From Candidatus Dormiibacterota bacterium (GTDB lineage Bacteria > Chloroflexota > Dormibacteria > Aeolococcales > Aeolococcaceae), in assembly GCA_036495095.1 (NCBI GenBank), contig DASXNK010000108.1, forward strand, positions 1 through 50,849: a stretch of DNA of 50,849 nt, written 5' to 3'. Positions 47,222 to 50,449 of this stretch are shown one piece after another; positions within the stretch are counted from its first letter, which is position 1; each line of letters starts with the position of its first letter. Under the pieces are notes generated by a model. That model saw only the letters and a program-made list of their open reading frames with translations. It was not told where the DNA came from and did not search any database. Made by a program: the position numbers and the translations under genes.

Positions 47222-48763
47222 TCAGGCTGGGCCGGCCAGCTCCGGCCTGCGGGCGGCGATGCCGGCGGCGGCGAGCGCGGCCCGGGCGGCGGTGGGGGTG
47301 ACGATGCATCCCGCCTCCTCCAGGGTGCTGCGCTGCCGGCCGTACCCCTGGGGGTCGTCCCGGGTGCCGAGCACGTAGGCCACCACCCGGGGGCCGTCCG
47401 CCGCCGCCGTGATCTCGGCGCACACCGGCGCCAGCATCCCGGCGGGGTCGGGGTGGGCGCCGTGTCCGAGGACGACGTCGAGGAGCACCACCGCCGTGGC
47501 GGGGTCGGCGGCCTCGCGGCGGATCAGCTCGAGCCGTGCCTCCGGGTCGATCATCGGGTGAGGGCGTCCCTGGGTGTACTCCTCCTCGCCGAGGTCGAGG
47601 CAGACGTGGGCTCCGGCGGGCGCGGGCAGGCCGTCCCGGCTGCTCACCGGGGCGTTCGAGTACACCCTGCCGAGGTGGGCCGCGAGGATGAGCTGGGCCT
47701 CGTAGCAGAGGGTGCCGCCCGAGAACAGGCCGCGGACCGCGGTGCGGCTCGCAGGCAGGCCGCGGCAGGCGGCCGCGACGTGCTCGGCGAGCCCCCGACC
47801 GGGGTCGGGCAGGGGCAGGCCGAGCCCGCCCAGGATCGCGATCACCCCCTGCTCCAGGGTGCCGGCGAGCTCGACCCCCGGGGCCACCTCGAGGTCGGGG
47901 GCGACCCCGAGCACCGCGGCGACCAGCGGCTTGGTGCGGGGCGCCCCCAGCAGCGCGCGGGCCACCGGCTCGGCCGGCGGCTTGGAGACGAGGAGGATCG
48001 CGTCGGTCCCGGGGTCGGCCTCGAGGGCGGCGATGGCGACCCGGGCCATCCGGCCGTCGACCGCCGCGGAGAGGTCGCGGCCGCCGATCCCGATCACCTG
48101 CGACACCCCGGCGCCCCAGCGGTCGAGCAGCGACGACACCTCCTGGGCCCCGGTGCCGGCGGCGGCGACGACGCCCACCCGCCCCGGCCCGACGACGTTG
48201 GCGAAGCCCAGCCCGGTGCCACCGAGGATCGCCGTCCCCGCGCCCGGCCCCATCACCAGCAGGCCCAGGCGCGCGGCGCGGTCCTTGAGCTCGACCTCCT
48301 CGTCGAGGCTGACGTGGTCGCTGAAGAGGAGCACGTGCAGGCCCGCGGTGAGGGCGTGGTGGGCGGCCAGGGCCGCGTACTCGCCGCTGACCGAGACGAT
48401 CGCGACGTTGAGGTCGGGGCGGGTGGCGACCGCCTCCTCGACGGTGCGCGCCCCGCGCTGCTCGCCGCCGTCGGGGCGGGAGGGACGCTCGGCGAAGAGC
48501 GCGTCGCGGCCCCGCGCCAGCCCGGCGTCGGCCGCCTCCTCCGACCCGGCGCGCGCCGCCAGCGCGAGGTCGTTCGCCGAGGCGCCGGCGAGGTCGGCCT
48601 CCGCCACCCCCTCGGCGAGGAGCGCCCCGACGTTGGCGGGGGTGGCCATCACCGCGGTCGCCCACTCCACCCCGTCGCCCTCGACCATGGCGCGGGTGGC
48701 GCTCATCAGCAGCACTGAGTCGACGAAGGTGTCGCGCAGCAGGGCGCAGCGGGCCGCGGTCAC
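47222..48763 (-). CDS. fdrA: FdrA-family protein (acyl-CoA synthetase-like; oxamate carbamoyltransferase subunit family)
   Basis: A 513-residue protein related to succinyl-CoA synthetase subunits. FdrA hallmarks are the N-terminal RDTFVDSVLLMSATRAM, MATPANVGALLAEGV, the CoA/phosphate-type region VMGPGAGTAILGGTGLGFANVVGPG, GVVAAAGTGAQEVSSLLDRWGAGVSQVIGIGGRDL, and the SGGTLCYEAQLIL region. In E. coli FdrA works with AllG and AllH as oxamate carbamoyltransferase, forming carbamoyl phosphate that a carbamate kinase turns into ATP. The GTG 48763 overlaps the kinase stop (GTGA). No allG or allH lies in this window. Long frame to 50677 is not part of it. Confidence 0.8.
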   Translation of the reverse strand: MTAARCALLRDTFVDSVLLMSATRAMVEGDGVEWATAVMATPANVGALLAEGVAEADLAGASANDLALAARAGSEEAADAGLARGRDALFAERPSRPDGGEQRGARTVEEAVATRPDLNVAIVSVSGEYAALAAHHALTAGLHVLLFSDHVSLDEEVELKDRAARLGLLVMGPGAGTAILGGTGLGFANVVGPGRVGVVAAAGTGAQEVSSLLDRWGAGVSQVIGIGGRDLSAAVDGRMARVAIAALEADPGTDAILLVSKPPAEPVARALLGAPRTKPLVAAVLGVAPDLEVAPGVELAGTLEQGVIAILGGLGLPLPDPGRGLAEHVAAACRGLPASRTAVRGLFSGGTLCYEAQLILAAHLGRVYSNAPVSSRDGLPAPAGAHVCLDLGEEEYTQGRPHPMIDPEARLELIRREAADPATAVVLLDVVLGHGAHPDPAGMLAPVCAEITAAADGPRVVAYVLGTRDDPQGYGRQRSTLEEAGCIVTPTAARAALAAAGIAARRPELAGPA

Positions 48764-49773
48764 GACCCCACCAGCGCCGAGGTCTCGGCGGCGCCGCCGC
48801 CCGGGGCCCGTGCGTGGCGGACGATGCTGGTGCCGCAGGTGCCCTCGAGCAGCGAGGCGCGGCCCTCGAGCGACGGGTACACCAGCTCCGGGGTGGTGAT
48901 CACCGCCACCCTGCCGCCGCCCCGCAGGAAGCGGGTGGCGGCGCGCACCTTGGGGCCCATGCTCCCCGCCGGGAACTGCCCGTCCGCGAGGTGGCGCTCG
49001 GCCTCCTCGAGGGTCATCTCCTCGACGGCGCGCTGGTCCGGGGTGCCGAAGTCGAGCATCACCGTCTCCACCCCGGTGACCAGCACCAGCGCCTCCGCGA
49101 GCAGCGAGGTGGCGAGGCGCTGGGCGGCGAGGTCCTTGTCGATGACCGCATCGATGCCACGATAGCCGTCGGGGGTGGAGACCACGGCGACGCCGCCGCC
49201 GCCGGCCGCCACCACCACGTAGCCGGCGTCGATGAGGGCGAGGATGGCGCCGGTCTCGAGGATCTCGATCGGCTCCGGCGACGGCACCACCCGCCGGTAA
49301 CCGCGGCCGGCGTCCTCGACGATCGACCAGCCCCGCCGGCCGGCGAGGGCCTCGGCCTCGTCGCGGCCGAGGAAGGGTCCGATCGGCTTGGTGGGATGGG
49401 AGAAGGCAGGGTCGGCGGGATCGACGGTGACGTGGGTGACCAGGGCGGCGGGTTGCACCCGCGGCCAGCCCGACACCCGCCGGAGCGCCAGCGAGATGAG
49501 GCTGCCCATCTGGCCCTGGGTCATGGCGCCGAGGTTGAAGAGCGGCTGCGGGGGGATGACCCCGGCGCTCTCCTCGTGGGCGATGGCGAGGCTGCCGACC
49601 TGGGGGCCGTTGCCGTGCACGACGACCACGCCCCATCCCGCCCGGAGCAGCCCCCTGGCCGCCCGCGCCATGGTCAGTGCGTTGGCCTCCTGCTCCTCGT
49701 AGGTGCCCGCCTGCCCGGCGCGTGTGAACGCGTTCCCGCCGAGGGCGATGACCGCGATCCTGTCCATCTCCAT
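48760..49773 (-). CDS. Carbamate kinase
   Basis: Transfers phosphate from carbamoyl phosphate to ADP, making ATP, CO2 and NH3. The 337-residue amino-acid-kinase-fold protein has IALGGNAFTRAG (8-19), VVVHGNGPQVGSLAI, VVAAGGGGVAVV, GIDAVIDKDLAAQRLA and FPAGSMGPKVRAATRFL, the defining ArcC motifs. ATG 49773 or ATG 49767 (two codons later) could start it. It is the first gene of the operon with fdrA, and supports a fermentative or purine-breakdown carbamoyl-phosphate route. Confidence 0.9.
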   Translation of the reverse strand: MEMDRIAVIALGGNAFTRAGQAGTYEEQEANALTMARAARGLLRAGWGVVVVHGNGPQVGSLAIAHEESAGVIPPQPLFNLGAMTQGQMGSLISLALRRVSGWPRVQPAALVTHVTVDPADPAFSHPTKPIGPFLGRDEAEALAGRRGWSIVEDAGRGYRRVVPSPEPIEILETGAILALIDAGYVVVAAGGGGVAVVSTPDGYRGIDAVIDKDLAAQRLATSLLAEALVLVTGVETVMLDFGTPDQRAVEEMTLEEAERHLADGQFPAGSMGPKVRAATRFLRGGGRVAVITTPELVYPSLEGRASLLEGTCGTSIVRHARAPGGGAAETSALVGS

Positions 49774-49787
49774 CCAGTGCGAGCGTC

Positions 49788-49804
49788 ACGCATGGCGTAT
49801 GCGT
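49788..49804. promoter_or_regulatory. 17-bp perfect inverted repeat at the carbamate kinase promoter
   Basis: ACGCAT-GGCGT-ATGCGT is 15 bp upstream of the kinase start. On the minus strand a -10-like CACTAT lies at 49811-49816, placing the expected start of transcription inside the repeat, so binding here should repress. The divergent PadR gene is the first candidate for its regulator. Confidence 0.5.
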
Positions 49805-49951
49805 CTTGGAGGATAGTGAACGGCCGGGTGCGCCGCAAGACGGCTCCGCCCTGCCGCGCCCGGAGGCCGGGGGTGTACGGGGGGTGCGCCCGGCGGTAGC
49901 CTGAGGGCACGCGGGCGGGATCGCACCAGGGCGGAGGGGACGATCGTCGGC

Positions 49952-50449
49952 ATGGACAGGCAGCATGGGGGCACCTGGAAGGGCGTGGCCGAGGTGCTCC
50001 GACCCCGGAACCTCGTCCAGCCCGGGCTGCTGCTCCTCCTCGAGGAGGCCCCCGGCCACGGCTACGACCTCCAGCACCGTCTGGAGGCGCTGCTGGTCTG
50101 GCGGGTCGACTCGCCGACCATCTACCGCGTGCTCAACGCGATGGAGGACCAGGGCCTGGTGTCCTCGATCTGGGAGCGGTCGGAGTCGGGCAAGGAGCGC
50201 CGCACCTACGTGATCACCGACGCCGGCCGCGGGGCGGGGGAGGCGTGGATGAGCGAGCTCGCCAACGCCAGCGTCCTGCTCCACGGGCTGCTCCGGCGCT
50301 ACGAGCTGGGCGACCGCACCGAGGCACCGCAGCCCGCCCGGGACCACGCCGCGGACGACGCGTTCTGGTCGCGCCGGCTGCTCGACGCCGAGCCGCGACC
50401 CGCGGTCGCGCAGGCGGTGGGCGCCGACGCTCCTCCCGTCGCGCCGTAA
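49952..50449 (+). CDS. PadR-family transcriptional regulator
   Basis: A 165-residue regulator: PadR wHTH (about 15-100) with LVQPGLLLLLEEAPGHGYDLQHRLEALLV, the helix SPTIYRVLNAMEDQGLVSSIWE and the wing SGKERRTYVITDAGR; a C-terminal helix (about 102-125) for dimerisation and a Pro/Ala-rich tail. Weak SD (GGAGGGG, 18 nt) before ATG 49952; -10-like TAGCCT near 49897. Lies between the carbamate kinase operon (divergent) and the hydrogenase gene. Confidence 0.85.
   Translation: MDRQHGGTWKGVAEVLRPRNLVQPGLLLLLEEAPGHGYDLQHRLEALLVWRVDSPTIYRVLNAMEDQGLVSSIWERSESGKERRTYVITDAGRGAGEAWMSELANASVLLHGLLRRYELGDRTEAPQPARDHAADDAFWSRRLLDAEPRPAVAQAVGADAPPVAP

Follow-up and report, generated by a model that had tools for sequence, protein, structure and literature searches.

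The window, that is, the whole 50,849-nucleotide stretch analysed (positions 1 to 50,849 of contig DASXNK010000108.1, Candidatus Dormiibacterota assembly GCA_036495095.1), carries a carbamate kinase gene (CK) followed by fdrA (allF). The pair is probably a displaced piece of an AllFGH-type carbamoyltransferase, in which AllG and AllH, encoded on two other contigs of the same genome (C107 and C63), would join FdrA in trans. The window lies on contig C108 of this source genome (G000), which comprises 4.38 Mb in 216 contigs and is 96.6% complete. The features of the pair and its surroundings were assigned as follows.

48760-49773, minus strand: carbamate kinase gene, first of the pair; 337 residues; NCBIfam PRK12352 292.7 bits (cut-off 266); Pfam AA_kinase
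47222-48763, minus strand: fdrA (allF); 513 residues; probable GTG start at 48763, stop at 47222; match to 3dmy
49802-49823, minus strand: predicted operator/promoter element for CK-fdrA, CCGTTCACTATCCTCCAAGACG; scored at 17.4 bits by a matrix from other genera
49952-50449, plus strand: divergent PadR-type regulator gene, probably outside the system; Pfam PadR 64.6 bits
46871-47218, plus strand: gene of a small 115-residue protein converging on fdrA; no Pfam or NCBIfam match

The pair and its predicted partner subunits

fdrA probably starts at a GTG that overlaps the CK stop by four bases (GTGA), and the two genes are therefore probably translationally coupled. The kinase passed one NCBIfam carbamate kinase cut-off and missed others (for TIGR00746 arcC, 322.9 bits against 358.25). 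It was 86.8% identical to the fdrA-adjacent kinase of G002, a genome of the same genus, and 57.6% to that of G017, from the same family. FdrA matched the solved E. coli FdrA structure 3dmy with an E value of 1.2e-74 and Pfam Ligase_CoA with 108 bits (cut-off 24.5), whereas with the NCBIfam FdrA model PRK06091 it scored 401 bits and narrowly missed the cut-off of 433. The GR[PA]HPMID motif is kept as GRPHPMID. The family models and the 3dmy match place the protein in the succinyl-CoA synthetase superfamily. A kinase beside fdrA is not unusual in itself, since E. coli has fdrA-ylbE-ylbF-ybcF in a row; the available part of PMC11326118 describes allFGHK as an operon.

The initial annotation saw FdrA with a carbamate kinase but without AllG and AllH. 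This holds for the neighbourhood, as neither gene occurs in the window, but not for the genome. The whole-genome search that it recommended found one gene of each, both over the Pfam cut-offs and only on C107 and C63. AllG is encoded at C107:8686-10095 (469 residues, E 1.3e-66; PF06545 222.7 bits, cut-off 27), and AllH at C63:34276-35046 (256 residues, E 1.3e-22; PF11392 80.1 bits, cut-off 25). FdrA is present in a single copy. There are two carbamate kinases, the second of which lies on C107 and is 53% identical to that of the window.

The suggestion that the other subunits might be elsewhere was thus borne out, and the same split was observed in G002 (67% complete, ~ 400 contigs). There the three genes again occupy three contigs, each syntenic with the matching contig of G000, and the aligned DNA pieces are 77-88% identical for CK-fdrA and allG and 71-84% for allH. 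Because the split and the synteny recur at all three places, the scattering is a feature of the genus and not a peculiarity of one assembly. Mis-binning or contamination of C63, C107 and C108 was rejected on the same synteny and on their similar G+C contents (0.735, 0.733 and 0.747). A one-operon allFGH(K) arrangement is absent from both genomes; a single operon is, however, an arrangement and not a requirement for activity. The PadR-type gene was considered as a regulator of the pair and was not supported, with DNA similarity to the same-genus locus starting only at CK.

We surveyed 110 genomes of the class, counting FdrA at E ≤ 1e-30. FdrA was found in 11 of them. AllG accompanied it in 11/11 (vs 2/99 of the other genomes) and AllH in 9/11 (vs 1/99). 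In the nine FdrA genomes outside the genus of the window, allG was always on the contig of fdrA (9/9), at a distance of ~ 11 kb in G017, and so was allH wherever it was matched (7/7). The neighbourhood comparison proposed in the initial annotation therefore sets these relatives against G000 and G002, the two FdrA-bearing genomes of the genus, in which the genes are scattered. Another genome of the genus, G001 (68% complete), gave a partial AllH match only.

The FdrA sequence itself points to a partner. The final ~ 50 residues of E. coli FdrA are missing from the window FdrA, and the same segment forms the N-terminus of the C107 AllG, in which residues 9-56 align with positions 507-554 of the FdrA model (E 4.8e-5). 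Using a small profile of the segment, we examined 61 loci with near-complete FdrA and AllG, including E. coli and three relatives from the class; E. coli and G055 match the profile by construction. The segment was located on AllG only at 40 loci, on FdrA only at four, on both at two and on neither at 15. Since the segment, where found, is rarely doubled, FdrA and AllG may well be in contact, and the window FdrA may be complemented by the C107 AllG.

The FdrA subfamily, its gene set and a promoter motif

A pattern scan over one genome per species (at least 84,980 species) yielded at least 586 confirmed FdrA relatives, of which the best 80 were used. Their neighbourhoods were annotated with profiles built in this analysis. 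Two loci, L044 (a copy of the G017 contig under a Candidatus Dormiibacterota record) and L063 (G002, with a frameshifted fdrA), were excluded from trees and clade counts. Among the best 80 loci, AllG was in view at 65, AllH at 47 and neither at 11. When at least 9 kb was available on both sides (37 loci), AllG was present at 35 and AllH at 26, and the only locus with neither was the same-genus L063.

A quick tree built from 84 FdrA sequences placed the window gene in a clade of 24 rows (SH-aLRT 98, starred) from Actinomycetota and Dormibacterota-class genomes. We compared the 23 other members of this clade with the 60 other loci; several clade contigs are short, and the clade counts are therefore lower bounds.

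Carbamate kinase: clade 22/23, others 25/60
MSMEG_0565 glycosyltransferase: clade 21/23, others 3/60
Radical SAM MSMEG_0568: clade 17/23, others 3/60
GNAT: clade 16/23, others 3/60
XcbC-type lyase: clade 14/23, others 0/60
AIR synthase-like: clade 13/23, others 4/60
XcbD-type lyase: clade 11/23, others 0/60
ComA-type: clade 10/23, others 1/60
Nitrile hydratase: clade 5/23, others 0/60
AllG: clade 15/23, others 55/60
AllH: clade 8/23, others 44/60
Xdh-type molybdenum hydroxylase: clade 0/23, others 14/60

The kinase and glycosyltransferase genes flank fdrA directly, separated from it by short gaps, in 20 of the 23 clade members. Of the other three, L113 has its kinase 3.6 kb away, no glycosyltransferase was found at L043, and L052 has AllG upstream of fdrA and no annotated gene downstream.

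The G000 counterpart of this gene set was found not in the window but at C107:5741-28772 (L006, L007), and the same combination recurs in Actinomycetota. The cluster contains genes for NitB/MSMEG_0572, a flavin disulfide reductase, a helix-turn-helix (HTH)-cupin regulator, AllG and the nitrile hydratase alpha and beta subunits. It also has XcbC-, XcbE-, XcbD- and ComA-type, AIR synthase-like, GNAT and radical SAM genes, a conserved gene of unknown function, the second carbamate kinase and the MSMEG_0565 glycosyltransferase. XcbD (626 bits, cut-off 600), both nitrile hydratase subunits, MSMEG_0572, GNAT, radical SAM and the glycosyltransferase exceeded their NCBIfam cut-offs; among the models passed are TIGR04043, TIGR04045 and TIGR04044, for the radical SAM, GNAT and NitB genes of Nit1C, a "nitrogen starvation" type of gene set, all within ~ 20 kb. 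Below the cut-offs were XcbC (439 of 575), XcbE (283 of 450), ComA (235 of 280), AIR synthase (best match TIGR04049, 267 bits of 321 needed), the arcC model of the second kinase and the models of the flavoprotein. Where checked, the nitrile hydratase CTLCSC motif (6/6) and the flavoprotein SPCGIP motif (9/9) were intact.

On C107 no gene separates the second kinase from the MSMEG_0565 glycosyltransferase (stop at C107:27582), and the whole-genome search placed no fdrA at this junction. The slot filled by fdrA in the relatives is therefore closed on C107, and the only fdrA found is that of the window. In a careful kinase tree, the C107 kinase was sister to that of G017 (95/88, starred), whereas the window and G002 kinases were placed among those of Actinomycetota (92/94, not starred). 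An approximately unbiased (AU) test rejected the grouping of the two kinases of the genus (p 0.036), with the groups named after a tree had been seen; duplication of the kinase within the genus is thereby disfavoured, weakly. These trees give moderate support to the acquisition of the window pair from an actinomycete-type cluster.

A motif with a near-palindromic core was located upstream of the kinase genes of the clade; in L046 it is a perfect palindrome, TCTACTATAGTAGA. The string ACTAT, an anchor chosen after seeing the sequences, occurred in 19 of the 22 upstream regions examined (250 bp each), compared with 1.9 expected by shuffling. The matrix was trained on 21 sites, none of them from the genus of the window. 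Its best match in the window, 17.4 bits at 49802-49823, lies 28 bases before the CK start codon, and the next reached 8.3 bits. The motif precedes CK in both G000 and G002. C107 has seven matches of at least 14 bits at four places: at the divergent ComA/AIR genes, at the starts of the flavoprotein and of HTH-allG, before the nitrile hydratase and before the second kinase. In a Markov control, 0.35 matches were expected per 170,849 bases, with at most two in 20 runs. Across the clade loci, 49 distinct non-training sites of at least 15 bits were observed (5.0 expected). None fell within a gene match annotated by profile, and 40 lay upstream of a cluster gene at a distance of at most 200 bp, the targets including radical SAM, AIR, flavoprotein, allG and ComA genes. 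At 59 loci outside the clade, the matrix did not discriminate (1237 sites, 1086 expected). The motif could act as an operator, as a promoter core or as both. Since the window pair and the C107 promoters have the motif in common, we predict that CK-fdrA and allG are co-regulated; that the HTH-cupin protein beside allG reads the motif is a guess from its position. Another palindrome just upstream of CK, ACGCAT-N5-ATGCGT, was dropped because it is absent from the upstream region of G002.

Several further observations concern the gene set. A 207-residue conserved protein without a Pfam or NCBIfam match (L007:5902-6522, minus strand) was found at 18/23 clade loci and at 1/60 others. A gene of a DUF7714 protein (L006:17113-17988, minus strand) lies between the XcbD-type and ComA-type genes. 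In G017 (L028:11224-12533), genes of an AmiS/UreI-type channel and a DJ-1/PfpI protein follow CK-fdrA-glycosyltransferase, with a 22-bit motif upstream of the channel gene. Outside the clade, L084 (Anaerolineales), L062 and L064-L066 combine Nit1C-type genes with fdrA and allG, with a kinase in four of the five and no XcbC/D/E-type matches. The actinomycete-type cluster also occurs in two metagenome-assembled records titled Bifidobacterium breve (L054, L120), whose FdrA is 53-56% identical to that of the window; these labels look doubtful.

Proposed function and its alternatives

From gene content, gene overlap, co-occurrence, synteny, subfamily and promoter motif, we propose that the window FdrA serves as the AllF subunit and would assemble in trans with AllG and AllH. 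The complex would transfer the carbamoyl group of a donor to phosphate, and the coupled kinase would convert the resulting carbamoyl phosphate into ATP and carbamate (NH3 + CO2). The system would belong to a nitrogen-related regulon common to Actinomycetota and Dormibacterota, along with coenzyme M-type, Nit1C-type and nitrile hydratase genes. In the genus of the window, the native fdrA would have been lost from the main cluster and replaced by the window pair, possibly an actinomycete-type acquisition. The parts found here agree with the type of reaction of E. coli AllFGH, for which the available text of PMC11326118 gives oxalurate + phosphate <-> oxamate + carbamoyl phosphate, feeding carbamate kinase.

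Several points weigh against this proposal. The initial annotation had held that allG and allH copies elsewhere, if co-regulated, would argue against a self-sufficient FdrA; allG is elsewhere and shares the motif, but allH is elsewhere without it, the best match over 40 kb of C63 being 6.6 bits. Among 20 other contigs of G000 (230,927 bases), one match of at least 14 bits was found, and its 16.7 bits are close to the 17.4 of the window. An AllH match is missing from two of the 11 FdrA genomes of the class (G093, G096), and AllH is the most divergent subunit, that of E. coli missing the C63 AllH by blastp at 1e-5. The G002 copies look broken, with frame changes in fdrA and an in-frame stop in allG (contigs C305 and C368; L029, L039); assembly error is the likely cause and decay a possible one. 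The support for the transfer history is moderate, and the AU test did not reject a Dormibacterota kinase group of the window, G002, C107 and G017 (p 0.106). Biochemical data for this lineage were also not found.

The complex could simply serve ordinary purine catabolism, as an oxamate carbamoyltransferase (EC 2.1.3.5) that takes allantoin-derived oxalurate as its substrate, with genes that are merely scattered. This is the role of E. coli AllFGH in the available part of PMC11326118. In G055, genes of a xanthine permease type and three of a xanthine dehydrogenase type, as read from translations, directly precede fdrA, allG and allH, and an Xdh-type gene is in view at 14 of the 60 loci outside the clade. 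At the 23 clade loci there is none. As the subfamily travels with Nit1C-type and coenzyme M-type genes rather than Xdh-type ones, its substrate need not be that of E. coli, and from gene context it is probably not allantoin-derived oxalurate. The best AllD and allantoinase matches of G000 reached 157.8 bits (cut-off 496.2) and 159.8 bits (cut-off 357.85), a weak argument given that none of six genomes searched passes either, including G055 and G095 with their contiguous fdrA-allG-allH; AllC and AllE were not searched. A purine role seems unlikely to us, yet it keeps some weight because these searches discriminate poorly. A decaying system, whose dispersed genes no longer form a working enzyme, would agree with the loss of fdrA from the main cluster, the allH gene without a motif and the broken-looking G002 copies. 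Nevertheless, fdrA, allG and allH are open, single-copy frames in G000, the motif before CK is kept in both genomes, and between them the kinases are 86.8% and the FdrA pieces 81-85% identical, which makes a relic improbable.

The initial annotation also envisaged that FdrA acts differently from its E. coli counterpart, as a stand-alone acyl/carbamoyl-CoA-type enzyme that feeds the kinase. The overlap of CK and fdrA, set apart from allG and allH, and the succinyl-CoA synthetase superfamily membership would fit such an enzyme. The comparison does not support this idea, however: none of the 110 class genomes has FdrA without AllG, L063 is the only locus with long flanks that lacks both partners, and the window FdrA is without the segment that the C107 AllG carries. 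With E. coli FdrA alone, oxamate transcarbamylase activity was undetected, according to the part of PMC11326118 available. We regard a self-sufficient FdrA as very improbable. The isolated fdrA of the window is no evidence for FdrA acting without AllG and AllH, and one apparent exception is removed.

In another form, a carbamoyl thioester feeding the kinase is possible, since the FdrA subfamily travels with coenzyme M-type genes. Thioester phosphorolysis is the reaction type of the succinyl-CoA synthetase superfamily. Rather than taking part in purine breakdown, the AllFGH of the clade might then complete a coenzyme M-dependent assimilation of cyanide or organic thiocyanates as its final, energy-yielding step. 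Coenzyme M disulfide would trap cyanide as CoM-S-CN, and nitrile hydratase, whose family includes thiocyanate hydrolase, would hydrate it to S-carbamoyl-coenzyme M. FdrA-AllG-AllH would phosphorolyse this product to carbamoyl phosphate and free coenzyme M; carbamate kinase would yield ATP, NH3 and CO2, while coenzyme M would be recycled by the single-cysteine flavin disulfide reductase. What suggests this scheme is the shared cluster, the promoter motif and the intact CTLCSC and SPCGIP motifs only. On the other hand, nitrile hydratase is in view in 5/23 clade members and the XcbC-type gene in 14/23 (contigs are often short), and the scheme gives no role to the radical SAM, GNAT, AIR and glycosyltransferase genes. 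We offer it as a speculative scheme of low probability.

Comparison with known systems

Our analysis describes a gene set, conserved in Actinomycetota and Dormibacterota, that combines an AllFGH-type carbamoyltransferase and a carbamate kinase with coenzyme M-type, Nit1C and nitrile hydratase genes and has one recognisable promoter motif. No description of this combination was among the literature matches listed, and we found none that joined four of coenzyme M, carbamate kinase, nitrile hydratase, radical SAM, carbamoyltransferase and nitrogen starvation. The roles of the genes are testable in named cultured carriers of the cluster, such as Pseudonocardia and Nocardioides. Partial parallels were reported in the sections available of PMC12625717: comammox bacteria have allFGHK beside triuret/biuret degradation genes, and ammonia-oxidizing archaea have allFGH and nitrile genes among their genes.

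The C107 cluster resembles the bacterial coenzyme M biosynthesis genes XcbB-E in its XcbD, which is over the cut-off, with ComA-, XcbC- and XcbE-type genes nearby; it differs in that these last three matched their models below the cut-offs. We take the XcbB-E pathway to be of the Xanthobacter type, and the family models agree with these assignments. The Nit1C cluster (nitBCDEFGH of Pseudomonas), of a type known from cyanide assimilation in the available parts of PMC11049912 and PMC1199592 and associated with cyanide/nitrile assimilation, is matched by NitB/MSMEG_0572, MSMEG_0568, the GNAT MSMEG_0567 and MSMEG_0565, together with the AIR synthase-like gene (below the cut-off) and a pyridine nucleotide-disulphide oxidoreductase. 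Unlike Nit1C, C107 adds nitrile hydratase alpha and beta, AllG, carbamate kinase and Xcb-type genes; a nitrilase was not noticed on C107, though no nitrilase search was made.

From E. coli AllFGH, for which the accessible portion of PMC3364942 proposed three genes as oxamate carbamoyltransferase candidates, the system differs in several respects. Its genes occupy three contigs and not one operon, the order is CK-fdrA, the ~ 50-residue segment is on AllG, and the accompanying gene set is different, with AllD and allantoinase lacking a match over the cut-offs in searches of poor discrimination. Nevertheless, the likeness to E. coli AllFGH and AllK extends to all three subunit families, the carbamate kinase and the GRPHPMID motif, with identities of 38-40% for FdrA, 40% for AllG and 41% for the kinase.

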